From the IMG/VR virus record IMGVR_UViG_3300042401_000459, positions 1 to 40,535 of that record: a DNA stretch of 40,535 nt, one strand, 5' to 3'. The notes below the pieces were generated by a model that worked only from the letters and a program-made list of their open reading frames with translations, had not been told where the DNA came from and ran no database searches. Position 1 is the first letter of the stretch. Each line of letters starts with the position of its first letter. Origin of the DNA: a virus. Position numbers and translations under genes: made by a program. Shown piece by piece: positions 6,289 through 19,096 of this stretch.

Positions 6289-6966
6289 ATGTTTAAAACG
6301 ATATATGATTATAAAGATTTCGCTCAGTCAACTACGAACGAAGATGGTAGCAGAGTTTACGTTAATGCCTCTGGTGTAGCGTATCCTTCTGCTACCACCG
6401 TTCTTTCTGTATTAAGTCGAGACGGAATTGCCAAATGGCGTGCTCGTGTTGGTGCTGAAGAAGCAGATAAAATCTCTAACAAGGCATCCACCCGTGGAAC
6501 CAAGATTCACTCTTTAACAGAGACATATCTCAAAAACGAAGATCTAAAAGAAGCGTATACGAGTACAAACGCATCTTTGCTTGACCTTGAGATGTTCAAG
6601 AAATTTCTACCCATTCTTGATCCCATCAGTAATATACATTGTCAAGAACTTGCTTTGTATAGCGACCATCTGCGCATGGCAGGTCGAGTTGACTGTATCG
6701 CCGAGTATAACGGTCAACGAGCAGTCATTGACTTTAAAACCTCAGGTAGACTGAAGAAGAAGGAACATATCAGTTCCTACTTTATGCAGACTGCTGCTTA
6801 TGCAATTATGTATGAAGAACGCACAAGTATTCCTGTTCCTAACCTTGTAATTCTGATCGCAGTTGAAGATGAAGAACCACAGGTGTTCATTGAGAAACGT
6901 GATAACTGGGCAAAGGAATTGCTTAGAACTCGTGATTATTATGAAAATGGTTACTATTTAACTTGA
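6289..6966 (+). CDS. PD-(D/E)XK nuclease (RecB/Cas4-like exonuclease)
   Basis: A 225-residue nuclease. After the YPSATTVLS opening motif common to this group come His74 (RGTKIHSLTE), Glu120, Asp135 in GRVDCIAE, and Asp148-Phe-Lys150 in VIDFKTS, which together form the PD-(D/E)XK metal site. Gln167-x3-Tyr171 (QTAAYA) is the RecB-family QxxxY motif. It probably degrades or processes DNA during phage replication or recombination. No ribosome binding site precedes the ATG, and the promoter TATAAT ends 5 bases before it, so the mRNA may be leaderless. No alternative start codon occurs in the first 35 codons. The tmRNA promoter overlaps its end. Confidence 0.85.
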   Translation: MFKTIYDYKDFAQSTTNEDGSRVYVNASGVAYPSATTVLSVLSRDGIAKWRARVGAEEADKISNKASTRGTKIHSLTETYLKNEDLKEAYTSTNASLLDLEMFKKFLPILDPISNIHCQELALYSDHLRMAGRVDCIAEYNGQRAVIDFKTSGRLKKKEHISSYFMQTAAYAIMYEERTSIPVPNLVILIAVEDEEPQVFIEKRDNWAKELLRTRDYYENGYYLT

Positions 6967-6993
6967 CTTCTGAAGAAAACTATAGTATAAATA
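6963..6993 (+). promoter_or_regulatory. Combined early (sigma70) and late promoter of the tmRNA gene
   Basis: TTGACT (6963-6968) with a 17-base spacer leads to TATAAA (6986-6991), and the same bases extend to TATAAATA (6986-6993), the T4 late -10 element. Both modes predict a start at about 6998-6999, just before the acceptor piece of the tmRNA. The sequence TTGACTT...TATAGTATAA is shared with the promoter at 6255. Confidence 0.7.
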
Positions 6994-6998
6994 TAATA

Positions 6999-7426
6999 TC
7001 AGTTGTTGACAAAGACTGAAAAGTTCTAAGGACTCGGGGGCAGTACCCGACGCCTCCACCATAGACACACAGATCAAGTCCTTAGCGGGATAAGATCAAA
7101 GTTTAATGATGTAAGTTTGGAAAACAGAAGTACAATGTTTTCTATAGACAGATCGGGCATTAAACACAATAAAGTCAACGACCGATACGGGCGTGTGTCT
7201 ATGATGGGGGCGAACTAGGATCGACTGGAACACAATAGGAAATTCGAGACTGATTGACTGGCAAAGTGCCATAAAAAGTAAATGCAAACGATAACGTTGC
7301 CTTTGCGCTTGCTGCGTAAGCAGTAAGTCATTGGGTTTTCGGCGGTTTCCCTCGAAACAGAATAAACCGCCAACCGTTCTAATTTAGAGTTGAAACGAGA
7401 CTATCAACGGTCTCAAAACCCTAAAT
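6999..7426 (+). ncRNA. ssrA: tmRNA, circularly permuted two-piece type
   Basis: Order in the gene is acceptor piece, intervening loop, coding piece. Acceptor piece: T-arm at 7034-7050 (TCGGG / 7-base loop / CCCGA), then CGCCTCC (7051-7057) and ACCA (7058-7061). Coding piece: GGGGGCG (7206-7212) pairs with CGCCTCC to give the 7-bp acceptor stem with G3-U70, the alanyl-tRNA synthetase identity pair; GAACTAGGATCGACTGG matches the conserved tmRNA 5' region. The resume codon GCA is at 7284; the tag ANDNVAFALAA ends with TAA at 7317-7319. Downstream are pseudoknot-capable repeats (7337-7370 and 7389-7414). Tagged proteins would be degraded through the LAA end. The permuted layout and ANDN tag are typical of Alphaproteobacteria. 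The outer ends are estimates. Confidence 0.92.
7061..7202 (+). repeat. Inverted repeat closing the tmRNA precursor loop
   Basis: ATAGACACAC (7061-7070) and GTGTGTCTAT (7193-7202) are perfect 10-base inverted repeats that continue the acceptor stem into the excised segment. In the precursor they would hold the two tmRNA pieces together before processing. The intervening segment (7062-7205, 144 bases) contains no convincing gene. Confidence 0.75.
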
Positions 7427-10100: not shown

Positions 10101-10131
10101 AAGGGGGACTTTTTCAAGTCCCCCTTTTTTT
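10101..10131 (+). terminator. Terminator between gp32 and the convergent tape measure gene
   Basis: AAGGGGGACTT (10101-10111), loop TTTC, AAGTCCCCCTT (10116-10126), then a run of T to 10131: a perfect 11-bp stem. It overlaps the stop codon of the leftward tape measure gene and, being nearly symmetrical with an A-rich left side, can serve both strands. Confidence 0.95.
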
Positions 10132-12772
10132 ATCCGAAAGATCTTCTATTCTGGAATCGTTGCCAACTACTGTCTTCAGTTCTGACTGTATCCATTGGTA
10201 GAGAACCACCACCATTATTCTGTTGTGGTGCAGCAGGTTGCTGAATTACGGTTGGTGGCGGGACATTAATAACTGGTGCAGTATCTTCCTTTGCACTTTC
10301 AGTCATTTCTTTTAGATTTGCTGCAGCATTATTGGATCCTGTTTCCAAATTACTCTTAGTAACTGGATTGGTCTTAATCACACCAGCACTATTCGGTGAG
10401 AATAACTCAGGACCATTTTCTCCAACCAGATAAGAACCATTAGCAGACACTGGTCCACCTTCTGCTCTTGCTCCATCAATAGGTTCGATTGTTCCCTCGG
10501 TTGAATCTTCGTTGCCTGCTCTGGAAATATCTCTTGCTGCAAGTCCAGCATCAATAGCAACCGATGCAGCAGTTCCCAATCCAGGAAGTGTAGAAGCGAC
10601 ACCAGACGCAACTTCACCAGCAGCACCAGCAAAGTCTCCTTGTAGTGCTCGCATCGCACCAAATCCGAGACCAGCAACTGCACCAATGATTGGAATTTTC
10701 TTCAGCAAGGATTTACCAACTGCTTTAGCACCAATTTTAGCTACTGCTTTGCCGCCAATTTTACTTGTTGCTTTGGCAATTCCTTTACCAGCAGAAGATG
10801 CCATTGCTTTCTCAGCAACTTTTCCGATGGCACCCTTTGCCGAACCGAGCATACCCATACCACTTTGGGCAACTTTACCGAGGGTGCTTCCCTTGGCGAC
10901 TTCTTTTCCGACAAATCCTGATGCTTTACCAAGCATCCCTTTGCCTTTTTCGACAACTCCCGCAGCACGATCTCTAAACACTTTACCGATTCGAGACTGT
11001 TTTGCAGCACCAGCAAGAGGGTTACCATTTTTGTCAAGCAGTTGTTGTGCGCCAAGACCTCTGTTCTTAATAAGGTCAGTCGCCTTTCCACGTAATGTAT
11101 TTGCACGATCAGAGATAAAGTCAGTTGCCTTACTCTTAATTGCGTTTACACGACTGGTAACTTTCTCTGCAGCACCTTCAACAAAGTTGGTTCCTTTGCT
11201 GAATACACCCTCTGCCTTTTCAGCAAAGTTGGAAAGCCCAGGAGAATATCTTTGATTCTTCAGACCCTTCAATATTCCTTCGCCGCCAGATTTAAATCCA
11301 GCATACCCAGCAGCGATTCCGCCAAGTAGAGAAGATCCTCCTTCACCCTGTGCATCTGCATCACCTTGGGTACCTGCTGGTCCCTGCCCACCATTTCCAG
11401 TTGCAGGAGTCTCTGGTGTTACTCTAGAATTTGAGGATTCTGTTCCTCCGATAACCACCTTTGGTATAGATTTTTCTTTTGCCTCTACCTTCGCAGATGC
11501 CTTTTCAGCATTTTGTTTATCAATATTTTCCGCACGTTTTTGGGCATCAGCAGATGCTTGCTCTGCTTCTACTTCTGCTACTTTGTTACGATTCATAACT
11601 TCTTTTACGTTGGAACTTGGATCCAACTGCTTTTTACCTGAAGGTGCAACTCCAGCACGTTTTTTATCGAACAACTTGTCTTTGATTTCTATGATGATGT
11701 CTTTGATTTCATTTAAGATAGATGCAACATCATTCTTATCATCGGATGCAATTCCACCCCTAGCAGACTGAATCTTTACCTTTGGTTGTTGAGATTCTTT
11801 ATACTTTGTTTCAAGAGTTTTATTAATCTCTACCATCGAAACAGGTTTACCTTCTTTTCTATACGAGATATCTTTCTCGGAAGATGGTTTGATATCCTGC
11901 TGCTCTAGAATTTTTTTCTGTTCTTCGGTAAGATTAGACATCTTATCGACAGATTTGAATTCTGCTATAGACTGTTTTGTAGATTGAGAAGTAGACTGGT
12001 TTGTTTTCGTCTTACTATTAATTGCGTCAGAGAACATTTTCTTCAACTGTTCTACTTCTGAGACCTTTTCGTTAGATTGGTTTACCTCGTTGCGAATTTC
12101 TTCTCGGCGAGATTCTTGAGAGTTGAATATGCTACCAAGAACTCCGCTTTGAGGTGTCAATCCTCTTTTGAATCCACCCATGAATTCACTACCAGCGTTT
12201 TTAAATCCTTCTTTGAACCCTTTGGTTGGCGTGCCTTCTCTTCCAGGTTCTTTTGAGTTTCCAAAAAATTGTTGCTTCAATCTATTGCCGAATGTATCAT
12301 CTTCTCCTTTTAGAGTCAATCCTTCCGACTTAAATCGTTCATCCAGTGTTTGATTTTGAAGATTCTTTCCAATATCACCGAATTCTTTTGGTCCATCACT
12401 CTCGCTTCTAGCAATCATTTTTGCTGCGAGATCGTTAATATCTTTTAGAGAGTTTTTAAATTCTTCGACAGTCTTGAATTGCAATTTTGTGATTGCATCC
12501 AAGGTATCTTCTAAAAGTTTCTTATCTTGTTTCTCTAAAGATCTTAGTGTGTCGTCAGTATTCTTTTCAATAGATTCAACAAAACTATTGACTAATCTTG
12601 CGGATGCTTGTATATCTGCAGGTCTGTTTTTGTTGAGATCAAGAAGTTTGCGAATTTCAGAAAACTGTTTGTCCCTGTCGCCAGATTGCATTGGTTTTGC
12701 CCCAGAACTTGAATTGTTCTTGGCGGTTTCTATTACCTTGGCAAATCTTTCCGAAGTGGACTTAGGTTCCAT
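10130..12772 (-). CDS. 29: Tape measure protein (gp29 position)
   Basis: An 880-residue protein read leftward. The N-terminal half (to about residue 420) is charged, helical and coiled-coil-like, with low-complexity Lys/Glu/Ser/Gln. The C-terminal half is Gly/Ala-rich with hydrophobic segments (IPIIGAVAGLGFGAMRAL and neighbours), as in tape measure proteins that insert in the host membrane. Near the C-terminus is EGGPVSANGSYLVGENGPELFSP, a signature of phage tape measure proteins. It is longer than T4 gp29 (about 590), implying a longer tail. It starts with a TAATG overlap with the gp51-like frame and follows gp26 and that frame, the standard order of chaperones then tape measure. Confidence 0.8.
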   Translation of the reverse strand: MEPKSTSERFAKVIETAKNNSSSGAKPMQSGDRDKQFSEIRKLLDLNKNRPADIQASARLVNSFVESIEKNTDDTLRSLEKQDKKLLEDTLDAITKLQFKTVEEFKNSLKDINDLAAKMIARSESDGPKEFGDIGKNLQNQTLDERFKSEGLTLKGEDDTFGNRLKQQFFGNSKEPGREGTPTKGFKEGFKNAGSEFMGGFKRGLTPQSGVLGSIFNSQESRREEIRNEVNQSNEKVSEVEQLKKMFSDAINSKTKTNQSTSQSTKQSIAEFKSVDKMSNLTEEQKKILEQQDIKPSSEKDISYRKEGKPVSMVEINKTLETKYKESQQPKVKIQSARGGIASDDKNDVASILNEIKDIIIEIKDKLFDKKRAGVAPSGKKQLDPSSNVKEVMNRNKVAEVEAEQASADAQKRAENIDKQNAEKASAKVEAKEKSIPKVVIGGTESSNSRVTPETPATGNGGQGPAGTQGDADAQGEGGSSLLGGIAAGYAGFKSGGEGILKGLKNQRYSPGLSNFAEKAEGVFSKGTNFVEGAAEKVTSRVNAIKSKATDFISDRANTLRGKATDLIKNRGLGAQQLLDKNGNPLAGAAKQSRIGKVFRDRAAGVVEKGKGMLGKASGFVGKEVAKGSTLGKVAQSGMGMLGSAKGAIGKVAEKAMASSAGKGIAKATSKIGGKAVAKIGAKAVGKSLLKKIPIIGAVAGLGFGAMRALQGDFAGAAGEVASGVASTLPGLGTAASVAIDAGLAARDISRAGNEDSTEGTIEPIDGARAEGGPVSANGSYLVGENGPELFSPNSAGVIKTNPVTKSNLETGSNNAAANLKEMTESAKEDTAPVINVPPPTVIQQPAAPQQNNGGGSLPMDTVRTEDSSWQRFQNRRSFG

Positions 12773-12930
12773 TAATTCTGCTGCCTTTGCTTATCTGCTT
12801 TTTCTTTTAAATGTATTGATAATAAACCAACATAAACTTCCCTTTCCCAAGGCATCATATTTTCAAGTTCACTTAATGAGTATTTATGCTCATGCATTAA
12901 AATAAAGTTGGTCTTATAATGATTCCTCAA
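12772..12930 (-). CDS. gp51-like / tail-chaperone T-like short frame, probably made by -1 frameshift from gp26
   Basis: The frame encodes ...NFILMHEHKYSLSELENMMPWEREVYVGLL... and a basic tail ending RQQN; HxYSLxELENMxPWERxxY is, as I recall, a conserved motif in this slot in marine T4-like phages. There is no good start: a TTG at 12930 and an ATG at 12897 both lack a Shine-Dalgarno site, and the ATG would cut the conserved NFILMHEH region. The frame is open back through the end of gp26 to a slippery TTTTTTC, so a gp26-extended fusion (about 60 added residues) is the likely main product. The stop overlaps the tape measure ATG (TAATG). Coordinates use the TTG. Confidence 0.6.
   Translation of the reverse strand: MRNHYKTNFILMHEHKYSLSELENMMPWEREVYVGLLSIHLKEKADKQRQQN
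12881..12888 (-). promoter_or_regulatory. Possible late promoter for the tape measure gene (CATAAATA)
   Basis: A NATAAATA match on the minus strand inside the gp51-like frame, predicting a start near 12875, about 100 bases before the tape measure ATG. Could be coincidental. Confidence 0.25.
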
Positions 12931-12947
12931 ATTATCATGAGAAAGGG

Positions 12948-13628
12948 TTATTCGAAAAAACTTTCTACTCCATCAAGGAAAACAACGTTGTGTGTTGAAC
13001 AACTTGGGCAATCATATTCAATCTTGTGCTCGATTCTGGGCATAGAGAGGAAGAATTCTGTAATCTTCTTAAACTGATCGGAAGTTAGATTGTCAACGAA
13101 TTGCTCTACATCTTTTCTTTGGAGATCTTTGGTAGTGAAAACTTCGTCGGCAGTATATACACTGTCGATACAAGAAACAACCAGATCGTATGTTGTAGAG
13201 TCACCCTTCATATCGATTGAGGTTGGATACCTCATAATAACTCCAAGACCGTTGCCAACATCAATCTTATTTGTATGACCCTCGGTAAGCGTCGGTTTGA
13301 TTGTTGTTAGATCAAGTTCCGCTGCAGTCTTGTGACCACATTCACCACAAACCAAATTAAACTCAGTTACCTGACCAATAGATTCGGATCGAAGTTTAAT
13401 AAAGATATTCTGAAGTTCAAAGAATGGTAGTTCGCTGCCAGTCAGTTTACCGAAACTACAAACATCTGTAATTTCTTGCATCGCATTTAGCATCTCGCTT
13501 TGGTCTTCAGATTCCGATGCCAGAATCAGTAACTTTTCTTCTTTGACCAAAAATGGTCTGAATTTAACTTTTTCTTTAGTCCCAATCATTTCAATGTAAA
13601 ACGTTGGTGTTTCCATAACAGGTAACAT
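12948..13628 (-). CDS. 26: Baseplate hub / tail-assembly protein gp26
   Basis: A 226-residue homologue of T4 gp26 (about 208). The N-terminus carries KVKFRPFLVKEEKLLILASES, the strongest family motif, and two cysteine pairs (LVCGECGHK and YDCPSCSTHN) probably bind zinc. The ATG at 13628 has AGGAG 6 bases upstream. The last codons are AGT-TTT-TTC-GAA-TAA, placing a U_UUU_UUC slippery heptamer in frame two codons before the stop. The following frame encodes a small conserved protein directly before the tape measure gene, so gp26 may be the short form of a G/GT-like chaperone pair. This role is inferred. Confidence 0.85.
   Translation of the reverse strand: MLPVMETPTFYIEMIGTKEKVKFRPFLVKEEKLLILASESEDQSEMLNAMQEITDVCSFGKLTGSELPFFELQNIFIKLRSESIGQVTEFNLVCGECGHKTAAELDLTTIKPTLTEGHTNKIDVGNGLGVIMRYPTSIDMKGDSTTYDLVVSCIDSVYTADEVFTTKDLQRKDVEQFVDNLTSDQFKKITEFFLSMPRIEHKIEYDCPSCSTHNVVFLDGVESFFE
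12954..12960 (-). promoter_or_regulatory. Candidate -1 ribosomal frameshift site U_UUU_UUC
   Basis: On the minus strand the heptamer T_TTT_TTC is aligned with the gp26 codons (AGT TTT TTC), fitting X_XXY_YYZ. A one-base slip back continues into the gp51-like frame with no stop codon between. I see no strong downstream hairpin, only a 5-bp AT stem, so efficiency is uncertain. Confidence 0.6.
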
Positions 13629-13659: not shown

Positions 13660-14373
13660 TTAACTAGAACCACCCTCTAGAGCGTTCTGTTGCCCAAGTA
13701 ATCCGCCAACAACATTTGCACCCTTTTGCACAACATTTTGATCCTGATACCAATTCCTAAATGTAAAGGTTACTGGTATTCTAACAAATTGTGTGTTGGA
13801 CCATGCCAATGAAGCAGGTGCCATTGATCTTGGCCATGCTTCTTCGATAATCCACTTATTCGTTACTTCGTCTTGTTGGTTCAATGAGTATAATTCTATT
13901 TGACATATATAATCTTCATATGGAAGAACATATCTTTTTTCTGGATCTACTATTTTGCGCATCCATGTGTCAAAATATTTCTTTACTGCCCAGTTGCTGT
14001 CACACAAAAAGGTAAACGTTGCAGATTCGCCATTGTAGTCTAGAAAGGTAGCACGATTTTCAACACGGTTGTTATACTTGTATGGTTTAGATCCCATCAT
14101 TAATCCAGGAAAGATTGCTTCTTCACACATAAGTGAAATATTTTGCGTATTAGCGTTCTCTGGAGAGTTTTTCGACCCAGCAAGAAACTTCGTCGCATCG
14201 TTTATGCTAAAATTCAATACTGGGATTTTGGCATCCAAAATTTTATTGACGATGGTATTTGCTACACCATTCATGCATTTCGGTGTTCCGATAATTACTT
14301 CGAATCTGTGCGATCTTGCCAAGTCCTTCGTGCCAACTTCTGCTAGGAACTCTTTGAGTCCTTGTCCTGCCAT
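13660..14373 (-). CDS. 54: Baseplate / tail-tube initiator protein (gp54-like, tail-tube fold)
   Basis: A 237-residue protein with features of the T4 tail-tube family (gp19/gp54): an N-terminal LARSHRFEVII strand, ATFLDYNGESATFTFLCDSNWAVKKYFDTWMRKIVDPEKRYVLPYEDY in the centre, and WSNTQFVRIPVTFTFRNWY at the end. gp54 caps the baseplate and nucleates the tube together with gp48, which is encoded 1 kb away in the opposite direction. gp19 is the alternative, but gp19 normally sits beside the sheath gene gp18, and this copy is longer than gp19 (about 163). The start has GAGGAG upstream. The stop of the 190-residue gene overlaps this ATG by one base. Confidence 0.6.
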   Translation of the reverse strand: MAGQGLKEFLAEVGTKDLARSHRFEVIIGTPKCMNGVANTIVNKILDAKIPVLNFSINDATKFLAGSKNSPENANTQNISLMCEEAIFPGLMMGSKPYKYNNRVENRATFLDYNGESATFTFLCDSNWAVKKYFDTWMRKIVDPEKRYVLPYEDYICQIELYSLNQQDEVTNKWIIEEAWPRSMAPASLAWSNTQFVRIPVTFTFRNWYQDQNVVQKGANVVGGLLGQQNALEGGSS

Positions 14374-14950: not shown

Positions 14951-15394
14951 CTATTTATTCGTTATTCCCAATTCTTTTTCAGTTAATATAAGAAATTTCC
15001 ATGTTCTATCAAGACAGAACTCGGTTGCTGCTTTCCACTTTGCTTGATTCACACCCCAAGTCATTACTTCTTGAAGAAACTGTTTTGTTTTTCTTTTTGG
15101 GATTTTTGGTTCTCGTGTAAATTTAGCAGGTTTAATTTCAATTAAATAACGTTGATTATTGACTTTGATATAGAAGTCGACGAAGTATCTATGGACTCTT
15201 CCATCAACAGGGGATCTATATGGTATCGCAAGTTCTTCTGATCCCCACTCGGAAACACTATCATTTGCATCACACCACTTCATAAACTTCAATTCATAAC
15301 TTGAACGGAAAATGATGTTGGTCGGATCCCCAATATACTTATTGGGTTTTTGAATATTGTATCTACCTTTTAAGGAATCTCTTGAATAAACCAT
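14951..15394 (-). CDS. 4: Head completion protein gp4 (nuclease-like fold)
   Basis: A homologue of T4 gp4 (also gp50/65), which acts at the head-tail junction in the final steps of head completion. Family features are SSYELKFMKWCDANDSVSEWGSEELAIPYRSPVDGRVHRYFVDFYIKVNN.RYLIEIKP, a TnsA-like endonuclease fold with the metal residues Asp (YFVDF) and Glu-Lys (IEIKP), then WGVNQAKWKAATEFC and FLILTEKELGI. The ATG at 15394 gives 147 residues, matching T4 gp4 at about 150. The frame stays open to 15493, but that would run through both divergent late promoters. It is the first gene of the leftward late block. Confidence 0.85.
   Translation of the reverse strand: MVYSRDSLKGRYNIQKPNKYIGDPTNIIFRSSYELKFMKWCDANDSVSEWGSEELAIPYRSPVDGRVHRYFVDFYIKVNNQRYLIEIKPAKFTREPKIPKRKTKQFLQEVMTWGVNQAKWKAATEFCLDRTWKFLILTEKELGITNK
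14952..14959 (-). promoter_or_regulatory. Candidate late promoter (AATAAATA), leaderless spacing
   Basis: Minus-strand NATAAATA ends 6 bases before the ATG at 14945, in the 5-base gap after gp4 and its last codons. The predicted start of transcription is the start codon; there is no Shine-Dalgarno sequence. Confidence 0.4.
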
Positions 15395-15401
15395 ATAAAT
15401 A
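15394..15401 (+). promoter_or_regulatory. Late promoter for the rightward baseplate block (TATAAATA)
   Basis: A perfect T4 late octamer, predicted start about 15407, 28 bases before the GTG of gp48. It overlaps the gp4 start codon on the other strand. Confidence 0.7.
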
Positions 15402-15425
15402 TAAGAAAATAACCAATCTAAGGGA

Positions 15426-15433
15426 TATTTATA
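15426..15433 (-). promoter_or_regulatory. Late promoter for the leftward gp4-tape measure block (TATAAATA)
   Basis: Plus-strand TATTTATA is TATAAATA on the minus strand. The predicted start is about 15420, giving gp4 a leader of about 26 bases. It faces away from the rightward promoter 25 bases to the left, and the two transcripts would overlap by about 13 bases. Confidence 0.65.
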
Positions 15434-15434
15434 A

Positions 15435-16547
15435 GTGGCAGATAAAGAAGAATTTACTGACAAAGATCCAAGAGCGGGATTTGTTAATGGCACTGCTGGA
15501 GTTCAAGGTGCGATACGGTATCCACTTGATTTGGAAGATCAGTCCCCACATTATATTATCTTCTATCCACTAGTAAGAGAAGATTCGCGTCTCGGTAAAT
15601 CCTTTAAAAATGCAGGTGCTGCCGTTTTTGATAAGAGTGCAGAAAATGTTACTGATCCAAAACTCGCTACAAAAGTGGCGGCTGCTCAGGGTGCAGGTAT
15701 TGGCGCTGGTCTTGGTATCGCTGAACAGTTGGCTAAGGGTGGAGGTAAAAATGCAGGTGGGGTATCTTTACTTTCTAGACTTGGTAGTGTAGCTGCCAAA
15801 ACCTTTGGGGGAGGGGTTGCGGGTGTCGTAGCTAACGCAGTGGCAGGCGGAAGTCAGGAACTATATCGAGGTGCTGGTGCGATTGCTCTTCAGATGCCTG
15901 AAAATAAAATGTCTTCTGGATATAAAGCAACGTGGGAAGCAGAAAGTATGGGTACGCTGCTCGGTGCGATCGGATCTGGTAATAGATCTTTATTGGGTGC
16001 GGCGAATCCATTAAGTCCAGATAATATGAAACTGGCACTACGTTCTGGTGGTAAACTTGCAAAAGTTTTAGGCGGTAATGTGACTGATGTCAATAGAGTA
16101 TTAGAAAATAATACTAAGAGTGTGCCGAATCCATATAAAGAACAATTTTTCAGATCAATGTCGAATAGAACATTCATGTTTGAATACAATTTCGCTCCGA
16201 GAAGTTTAAAAGAAGCAGAGGCAGTTTTTAGTCGTAAAACTGGGGCGGCGGGAGATGGTATGGGAATCATTCAAAAGTTCGCATATCATATGCACCCAGA
16301 ACTCAAAGACTCGGGATACTTCTTTAACTATCCATCTGAATTTTCTATCGTTTATTATAATGCAGGAAAAGAAAATACATATGTTCGTAAAATTTCGACG
16401 TGTGTTCTTACTAATATGACAGTAGACTATGGTAGCGACACTGGATTTACATCGTTCGAAGAAGGTATGCCGACACATGCTACTATGCGATTAGAATTTT
16501 TAGAACTAGAACTTATGACCGCACAAAGAGTTTATCAAGGATTTTAA
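15435..16547 (+). CDS. 48: Baseplate tail-tube cap protein gp48
   Basis: A 370-residue homologue of T4 gp48 (about 364). The C-terminal half is diagnostic: NPYKEQFFRSMSNRTFMFEYNFAPRSLKEAE, FAYHMHPELKDSGYFFNYPSEFSIVYY, YVRKISTCVLTNMTVDYG, and SFEEGMPTHATMRLEFLELELMT. Residues about 75-150 form a long Gly/Ala-rich hydrophobic insert (GAGIGAGLGIA, AAKTFGGGVAGVVANAVAGG). It starts with GTG, 10 bases after AAGGGA. It begins the rightward late block, and gp53 follows one base after its stop. gp48 caps the hub-wedge assembly and starts the tail tube with gp54. Confidence 0.85.
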   Translation: MADKEEFTDKDPRAGFVNGTAGVQGAIRYPLDLEDQSPHYIIFYPLVREDSRLGKSFKNAGAAVFDKSAENVTDPKLATKVAAAQGAGIGAGLGIAEQLAKGGGKNAGGVSLLSRLGSVAAKTFGGGVAGVVANAVAGGSQELYRGAGAIALQMPENKMSSGYKATWEAESMGTLLGAIGSGNRSLLGAANPLSPDNMKLALRSGGKLAKVLGGNVTDVNRVLENNTKSVPNPYKEQFFRSMSNRTFMFEYNFAPRSLKEAEAVFSRKTGAAGDGMGIIQKFAYHMHPELKDSGYFFNYPSEFSIVYYNAGKENTYVRKISTCVLTNMTVDYGSDTGFTSFEEGMPTHATMRLEFLELELMTAQRVYQGF

Positions 16548-17080: not shown

Positions 17081-19096
17081 ATGGCAGTAGATTCTAATTC
17101 AAAATCATTATCAAATCCTGGTGACGTAACATTTAAGACTGTTGAAATTCAAAGTGTCAACGGTGACATTCTTGACATCAAAAATTTTGTCGTCGAACTA
17201 AACATCTATGAGGATATATTCTCAAACGCACTACAAGGTGTGTTGATGGTTGTAGATTCGAAAGAACTTATATCTGGGTTGCCTCTAGTCGGCGACGAAC
17301 TGTTGAATATTTGGATACAAACTCCAACCTTTGGTGATGGATACGGCGACAGTATCAAAAAAACTTTCTCAATTTATTCTATTAAGAATAGAATGCTTAA
17401 TGCTGACCGTGAGCAAATGTACTCATTATATTTTTGTTCTATGGAAGCAGTCAGCGATAATATCACACAAGTCAGTAAAAAGTATGAGGGTACTACAGAC
17501 GAAATTGCAGACAAACTGTATACGGAGTTTTTAAAACAAAAACGCTGTTTCGGCGGTATCGATAATAAAGACGAAACCCCAATGATTATCGCAGATACTC
17601 CACATGAAGGTAAGATTGCTTTCGTAGCAAATATGTGGTCTCCATTTCGCTGTCTCAATTATGTTGCGCAGAGATCTATCGGAGCAAAACAAAAAGCGCC
17701 AAGTTTCTTATTCTATGAAACCAAAACAGGATTTTACTTCACTTCTATTGACAATTTAATCAAGAATCAGTTAGATGACAGTTCTGTATATGCAGAATAT
17801 GTGTATTTACCGAAACCTGTTGATCCTACAATCGAGTTGGAAGATAAAGAAACAATACATACGGTGAAACCTGGATTAGACAAAGCATTTAGTACTGTAT
17901 CAGATATTCGTTTCAGTGAACAGGTTGATATTCTGAAGTCACAAGACAATGGAAGATTTGCCAGCACTACCACAGTTTTTGATATTATGATCAAACAAGC
18001 AACGAATGCCCCGCACGATTATTCATATTCATATCCTGATATTGTTCATATGGAAAATTACAGAATTGAAAATGGTAAGGCAACATTTGATGAAGGAGCA
18101 AAGGATAATATGACATATCCTGCGAACGTAACTCGTTCAGCATTGTCTAAGCGTTTCTTCCGTCCCGTGCACAGAAAAGTTCTTACTACGAGCGACGACG
18201 ATTTACTAGACTATTCACCAGATCTATGGTTGGGCATGCGCCAAAGCGTTCTTGAAGATATTTCTGGATTGCGAATGCACATCACGGTTCCTGGAAGAAC
18301 GGATGCTGAGGTTGGTAAGATTATCAATTTCAAATATCCTAAAGTTGGAGATGGCGCAGATAAATCAGATCCAAAGAACCAATGGGATCCGTTCCTTTCT
18401 GGTGTTTGGATGATCACTGCTATTCACCATAAAATTACTCCAGTCGCGCACAATATGATTTTGGAAATTGCCAAGGATTCGTTCCATACAGCGTTCCAAG
18501 AAATTGATCGTGCACCACCACCGAATCCTCCTCCTCCTGCTGCTGCGGATGATCCCGAAAATTCTGGTGAACAATCTGGTGAACAAGCACAACAACAAAA
18601 CGGTGCAACCCCAGCGTCTTCTGGACCAGTAAATAAACAAGGGTGGGTTCACCCAACTGGTGGCATAGGACGAATTACCAGTGCTTATGGTGACACTAGT
18701 CGACCGAAAGGAGGTTCGAACCCGCATTTGGGTATGGATATTGGAAGGCAACTTTCTCCTGCAAAGGAGATTAATGGACAAGTTGTTTATTCTGTCTTAG
18801 ACGGTGTAGTTCTCTTGGCAGGATGGCAATCATCAGATCACAAGTCGGGTGGCGGGGTTCGTGTGCTCATCCAGCATAAAGACAGAAATCTGACATCCTT
18901 TTATGGACATTTAAAGGAAGGTTCTTTGATGGTTAAGGTCGGAGATAAGGTAAAGGCTGGACAACCAATTGGGCGTGTCAATAACTCTGGATCCTCTACA
19001 GCTGCCCACTTACACTTTCAGTTGCATAAAGGACTTAATGGTGCTGGTCAAAAAATTGACCCGCTTCCTTATCTGGCTCCATGGAAGGGGCGGTAA
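17081..19096 (+). CDS. 27: Baseplate hub protein gp27 fused to M23 (LytM) endopeptidase
   Basis: A 671-residue protein. Residues 1 to about 470 form a gp27-like hub: NFVVELNIYEDIFSNALQGVLMVVDS at the start, then FLFYETKTGFYFTSIDNLI, RFFRPVHRKVL and SGVWMITAIHHKITPVAHNM. A Pro/Gln/Ser linker (about residues 475-525) leads to a C-terminal M23 metallopeptidase with HLGMD (His549, Asp553), YGHL (His610) and HLHF (His643, His645), the complete zinc and catalytic set. M23 enzymes cut peptide crossbridges in peptidoglycan. T4 gp27 (about 391) has no such domain. The stop overlaps an ATG (TAATGA) of a short duplicated start region before the gp5 gene. Confidence 0.85.
   Translation: MAVDSNSKSLSNPGDVTFKTVEIQSVNGDILDIKNFVVELNIYEDIFSNALQGVLMVVDSKELISGLPLVGDELLNIWIQTPTFGDGYGDSIKKTFSIYSIKNRMLNADREQMYSLYFCSMEAVSDNITQVSKKYEGTTDEIADKLYTEFLKQKRCFGGIDNKDETPMIIADTPHEGKIAFVANMWSPFRCLNYVAQRSIGAKQKAPSFLFYETKTGFYFTSIDNLIKNQLDDSSVYAEYVYLPKPVDPTIELEDKETIHTVKPGLDKAFSTVSDIRFSEQVDILKSQDNGRFASTTTVFDIMIKQATNAPHDYSYSYPDIVHMENYRIENGKATFDEGAKDNMTYPANVTRSALSKRFFRPVHRKVLTTSDDDLLDYSPDLWLGMRQSVLEDISGLRMHITVPGRTDAEVGKIINFKYPKVGDGADKSDPKNQWDPFLSGVWMITAIHHKITPVAHNMILEIAKDSFHTAFQEIDRAPPPNPPPPAAADDPENSGEQSGEQAQQQNGATPASSGPVNKQGWVHPTGGIGRITSAYGDTSRPKGGSNPHLGMDIGRQLSPAKEINGQVVYSVLDGVVLLAGWQSSDHKSGGGVRVLIQHKDRNLTSFYGHLKEGSLMVKVGDKVKAGQPIGRVNNSGSSTAAHLHFQLHKGLNGAGQKIDPLPYLAPWKGR

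Follow-up and report, generated by a model that had tools for sequence, protein, structure and literature searches.

The locus described here raises the question of whether a T4-type gp26 gene and the gp51-like frame that overlaps its end, ahead of a probable tape measure gene, jointly encode two tail assembly chaperones (TAC) by programmed -1 frameshifting. In phage lambda, a short and a -1-extended protein are made from the gene ahead of the tape measure gene and neither is present in the virion; in the lambda model, the short forms on the tape measure protein far outnumber the long form (approximately 30:1), and the long form binds the tube subunit (PMC5009743). T4 is stated to be the exception to this scheme (PMC5009743); among its proteins, gp26 and gp51 have been classed as chaperones of hub assembly (PMC3004832). 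The window, i.e., the whole stretch of DNA analyzed (40,535 nucleotides of the viral record IMGVR_UViG_3300042401_000459), contains the features compiled in Table 1.

Table 1. Features of the gp26 locus and its flanking genes in the window.
Feature	Position	Strand	Basis or remark
Probable tape measure protein, 880-codon ORF	10130..12772	-	Starts inside the TAATG overlap; position and length
-1-frame extension, gp51-like (TAC-C)	12772..12954	-	60 codons plus stop; phrog_634, phrog_150, substitution pattern
Candidate stimulatory stem-loop	12923..12944	-	TTTCTCA, 8-nt loop, TGAGGAA; 9 nt 3′ of the heptamer
gp26, short TAC form (TAC-N)	12948..13628	-	226 aa; PF12322, phrog_150
Slippery heptamer U_UUU_UUC, in phase	12954..12960	-	Read directly; conserved in 80/80 and 93/95
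Tail-tube-family protein, just upstream of gp26	13660..14373	-	phrog_45, E 1.7e-28

The gp26 product belongs to the T4 gp26 family PF12322 (E 7.1e-59; 199.6 bits, above the curated cut-off of 24.5), matches phrog_150 in a PHROG profile search (E 4.2e-59) and contains zinc-ribbon-like CxxC pairs. Read along the minus strand from 13628 to 12948, the gene ends in GTA GAA AGT TTT TTC GAA TAA, so that a single codon (GAA) separates the heptamer from the stop. The preliminary description had placed U_UUU_UUC in the correct phase, followed by a -1 frame of about 60 codons that has no start with a ribosome binding site and ends in a TAATG overlap with the next gene, and each of these points was borne out. 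T_TTT_TTC indeed stands in phase, and the -1 frame (RITLSHDNLRNHYKTNFILMHEHKYSLSELENMMPWEREVYVGLLSIHLKEKADKQRQQN) is open from 12954 to 12775 up to a TAA (12774–12772) that overlaps the ATG of the 880-codon ORF. The sole possible start within the first 18 codons of this frame is a TTG at codon 9, which lacks a Shine-Dalgarno sequence, and the first ATG, codon 20, already lies within the conserved segment. The expected gp26-gp51 fusion product has 285 aa. The -1 frame matches phrog_634 (“baseplate hub assembly catalyst”; E 2e-24) and also columns 237–281 of phrog_150 (E 6.7e-6); since phrog_150 spans both frames, this is a sign that some of its members are fused.

The window and six related contigs, all partial records, each have one full-length PF12322 gene, and a second one with an in-frame gp51-like tail, as in T4, was found in none of these partial sequences. 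The 880-codon ORF shares phrog_23178, 34252, and 18972 with the ORF that occupies the equivalent place in S-PM2 and that additionally matches a tape-measure PHROG. Judged by position, length, and these shared PHROGs, it is a probable tape measure protein. S-CREM2, which has a 418-nm tail, encodes two long ORFs after gp51 (1565 and 1456 aa), and neither alone fits 0.15 nm per residue. Within the probable tape measure ORF of the window, PF12322 positions 134–192 are weakly matched (14 bits, below the cut-off) at 12437–12619 on the minus strand; the same match recurs in three close relatives and may be due to chance. Elsewhere in the window, a protein of the head closure family (phrog_218; 14951–15493, minus strand) is also matched by PF08722, a domain of TnsA-like endonucleases (E 3e-20), and a tail protein (phrog_350; 17081–19096, plus strand) carries a C-terminally fused M23 peptidase domain. 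A permuted tmRNA of the alphaproteobacterial type (6959–7410, plus strand; RF01849, 117 bits; RF04321, 98 bits; tag ANDNVAFALAA) suggests that the phage has an alphaproteobacterial host.

Absence of a conserved heptamer in related phages had been named beforehand as a result that could overturn the frameshift, but the heptamer proved to be conserved in two samples. The first consisted of 62 viral contigs with gp26 relatives (identity down to 30%), to which 80 relatives of S-PM2 gp26, 9 of T4 gp51, and nine isolated phages were added. Among the 109 distinct PF12322-family ORF ends obtained, 93 carry a 3′-terminal T_TTT_TT(C/T) located 0–1 codons ahead of the stop; the other 16 comprise 9 T4-type gp26, 5 T4-type gp51, and the outliers Det7 and K414. 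Hence, where phages lack a separate long gene like that of T4, 93 of 95 distinct junctions have the heptamer, including one contig that ends before its -1 frame does and another whose -1 frame is shortened to 44 codons. Because this sample had been chosen by homology to gp26 or gp51, an independent test was based on the -1-frame protein alone. The 80 viral loci retrieved solely through homology to this protein all have an in-phase T_TTT_TT(C/T/A) at the gp26 3′ end, compared to a chance level of 4 in 6,094 codon pairs within gp26 bodies (~0.07%). As the gp26 stop lies 8–9 codons beyond the heptamer in six of these loci and 2 codons beyond it in one, closeness of heptamer and stop is common rather than universal. 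Given the encoded amino acids, the choice of xxT_TTT codons has a P of ~1e-11 across 26 gp26 clusters, a value that describes codon choice only, since the clusters were picked for heptamer presence. Phage pf16 writes the site as TTT TTT; elsewhere its gp26 prefers TTC 13 to 1. Both heptamer and -1 frame are thus conserved in relatives, as expected of a pair of the lambda G/GT type. An artefactual split, caused by sequencing error or decay of the gene, has nothing in its favour beyond the split itself, and with the same arrangement recurring in over 150 distinct junctions, both in isolated phages and in samples unrelated to one another, its probability is negligible.

Frames can also be joined at the RNA level, if RNA polymerase slips on a run of identical nucleotides, and every heptamer-bearing copy does contain a T6 run. 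However, a run of six Ts is short for a polymerase to slip on efficiently. A phase that is strictly kept, a seventh position that may be C, T, or A, and folding of the downstream RNA all fit slippage of the ribosome, so that we regard a transcriptional origin of the fusion as very improbable. For ribosomal slippage on the heptamer, the RNA signals differ between lineages. Folding right after the heptamer exceeds that of synonymous shuffles in the 26 clusters (mean z -2.46, compared to -0.91 in a control stretch), with p<0.05 in 16 of them. The stem-loop of the window itself (ΔG -6.3 kcal/mol) is weak when taken alone (p 0.13 against synonymous shuffles), and a stimulatory structure at this place is therefore only possible; for the window's own clade, the RNAalifold consensus structure lacked convincing covariation. 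In the S-PM2 group long stems follow the heptamer, and the covariation score of the clade's stem is higher than in all 500 shuffles, with just two pairs changed on both sides. An internal Shine-Dalgarno sequence 5′ of the heptamer was considered as a further stimulator and rejected, as it is overall not clearly enriched above synonymous shuffles and weak in the window; GGAGGG does occur at the usual stimulator distance upstream of the heptamer in several lineages.

Translation of the -1 frame from the slip site on is indicated by its substitution pattern. In codons 3–8, which are located at or past the gp26 stop and ahead of the window's first start codon, 326 related sequence pairs differ by 197, 145, and 469 changes at codon positions 1, 2, and 3, respectively. 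By this comparison, the -1-frame codons ahead of any start show substitution of the coding type. Moreover, synonymous change per degenerate codon declines from ~0.5 in gp26 to ~0.17 across the junction when the window is compared with distant members of its clade. These data also bear on the alternative that the gp51-like frame is a small gene of its own, translated through re-initiation or coupling where gp26 ends. GenBank annotates it in this way in several phages, e.g., S-PM2, where gp51 begins at an ATG just past the gp26 stop, and an ATG is present within the first 16 codons in 68 of 155 distinct -1 ORFs. However, a start with a Shine-Dalgarno-like sequence occurs in this interval in just six of the 155, which together with the third-position excess, already visible in relatives upstream of the window's TTG, argues against re-initiation. 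A separate gene would furthermore leave unexplained both the conserved heptamer and the long form that T4 encodes in a single frame (see below). We therefore consider independent initiation improbable and retain the frameshift as the very probable origin of a long protein.

T4-type phages provide a natural control for this reading. The gp26 of T4 belongs to the same Pfam family as gp26 of the window but has neither the heptamer nor a gp51-like -1 extension, and gene 51 is a separate gene on the opposite strand. In T4 and its close relatives, the Phe-Phe near the gp26 end is kept in the non-slippery form GAG/GAA TTC TTT (GAG TTC TTT in T4). Residues 1–201 of T4 gp51 match PF12322 (E 7.7e-55); the protein matches phrog_150 over its full length as well as phrog_634, and its C-terminus hits the same PHROGs as the -1 frame of the window. 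Judging from these profile matches, T4 gp51 consists of a gp26-like domain with a gp51-like tail and thus represents gp26 in its long form, encoded within a single frame. The earlier idea that gp26 and gp51 constitute one TAC system stands with regard to homology and fold; T4 itself uses no slip and has gp51 as a separate long-form gene.

The same partition is seen among other named phages. Two PF12322 genes and no heptamer are found in four (T4, RB49, RB43, and CP220), and one PF12322 gene with the heptamer in 12 (HTVC008M, Cr30, Aeh1, phiM12, phiW-14, S-CREM2, S-N03, S-PM2, KVP40, pf16, AS-szw, and YB07); P-SSM2, which is outside this count, has the heptamer as well. The two genes of RB43 are on the same strand and those of the Campylobacter phage CP220 are ~9 kb apart, and in both phages one copy has the gp51-like end in frame. 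Exceptions are the Det7-type loci and Vibrio phage K414, which possess one PF12322 gene followed by an open -1 frame and lack the standard heptamer. In the Det7-type loci inspected, GAR ATT TTC ATT TAA TTTTTG is retained across ~70% protein identity, and the exceptional junctions may use a different recoding signal or a start of their own.

Prediction of the gp26 structure, which had been proposed as a check against the folds of gpG and gpT, yielded a model with a pLDDT of 88.5 and a pTM of 0.82, and its top matches were tail assembly chaperones. Foldseek with this model gave no significant match, nor did a sequence search of solved structures reveal a significant relative. In a second structural comparison, 3FGX ranked first (gp26 residues 4–94; Z 7.7, 85 residues, 4.2 Å) and 2OB9, HK97 gp13, second (residues 1–84; Z 7.1, 83 residues, 3.8 Å), followed by a third match with Z 4.7. 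Both leading structures have been described as phage tail assembly chaperones (PMC9603447). Values of 7–8 can be attained by unrelated folds and a Z under 8 is no proof, but with two chaperones leading all other matches by a clear margin, a chance origin is less likely. The model thus most likely has the TAC fold, at a Z under 8. A fold search with T4-type gp51 gave no TAC among the matches listed, a result that excludes nothing.

From sequence, structural model, and analogy, it is very probable that gp26 gives rise to a short and a long tail assembly chaperone by a -1 slip on U_UUU_UUC, the latter being the rarer gp26-gp51 protein. The slip site, the open frame, their conservation, the coding pattern, and the family and modelled fold are observed, and the slip itself, its rate, and the binding partners of the two proteins we infer. 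Most ribosomes would terminate at the gp26 TAA and release the short form, while a minority would slip back by one nucleotide, with tRNA-Phe re-pairing in the P and A sites, and read the 60 further codons. By analogy to gpG and gpGT of lambda, one expects the short form to coat the tape measure protein, probably encoded by the next gene, and the long form to recruit tail tube subunits before both depart. The conserved heptamer, the coding -1 frame without a start, the TAC-like fold, and the two-gene control suggest such a role, and most likely gp26 and gp26-gp51 function as gpG and gpGT do. Lambda slips at G_GGA_AAG. The two systems share the short and -1-extended pair ahead of a tape measure gene, which is a probable one here, but differ in the slip site and in the CxxC pairs of gp26, and no sequence similarity between them was shown.

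TAC pairs produced by slippage are already known from T4-like phages. According to papers citing their work (PMC12846349; PMC10885494), Vladimirov, Gautam and Davidson (2022; Virology 566:9–15) identified the TAC genes of these phages; they are credited with the poly-T slip signals in TAC-N genes (PMC12846349) and with the observation that some T4-like phages have one short and one longer fused TAC gene instead (PMC10885494). Thus, the locus presented here is a new, well-supported example of a published system. It resembles that set, as described in the citing papers, in the poly-T slip site in TAC-N, but stems from an uncultivated phage with an alphaproteobacterial-type tmRNA. In the Vandenendeviridae phage Adele, a conserved GTTTTT at the TAC-N end precedes an open -1 frame that extends to the tape measure gene (PMC12846349), an arrangement from a different phage family that, by its description, resembles the present locus in motif and frame.

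With somewhat less than even probability, the U_UUU_UUN frameshift may be ancestral in the T4 superfamily and have been replaced by gene duplication more than once, as a divergent pair in T4 and RB49, a same-strand pair in RB43, and distant copies in CP220, with a further, undescribed recoding signal at the equivalent position in the Ackermannviridae-type phages. In cyanophages, vibriophages, and others, gp51 is usually annotated as a small gene of its own, a “hub assembly catalyst”; this would be corrected, since in these phages it most likely represents the C-terminal part of a chaperone made by frameshifting. Slip site and duplicated gene, moreover, form a natural comparison through which to ask what makes the ratio between the two chaperones important.
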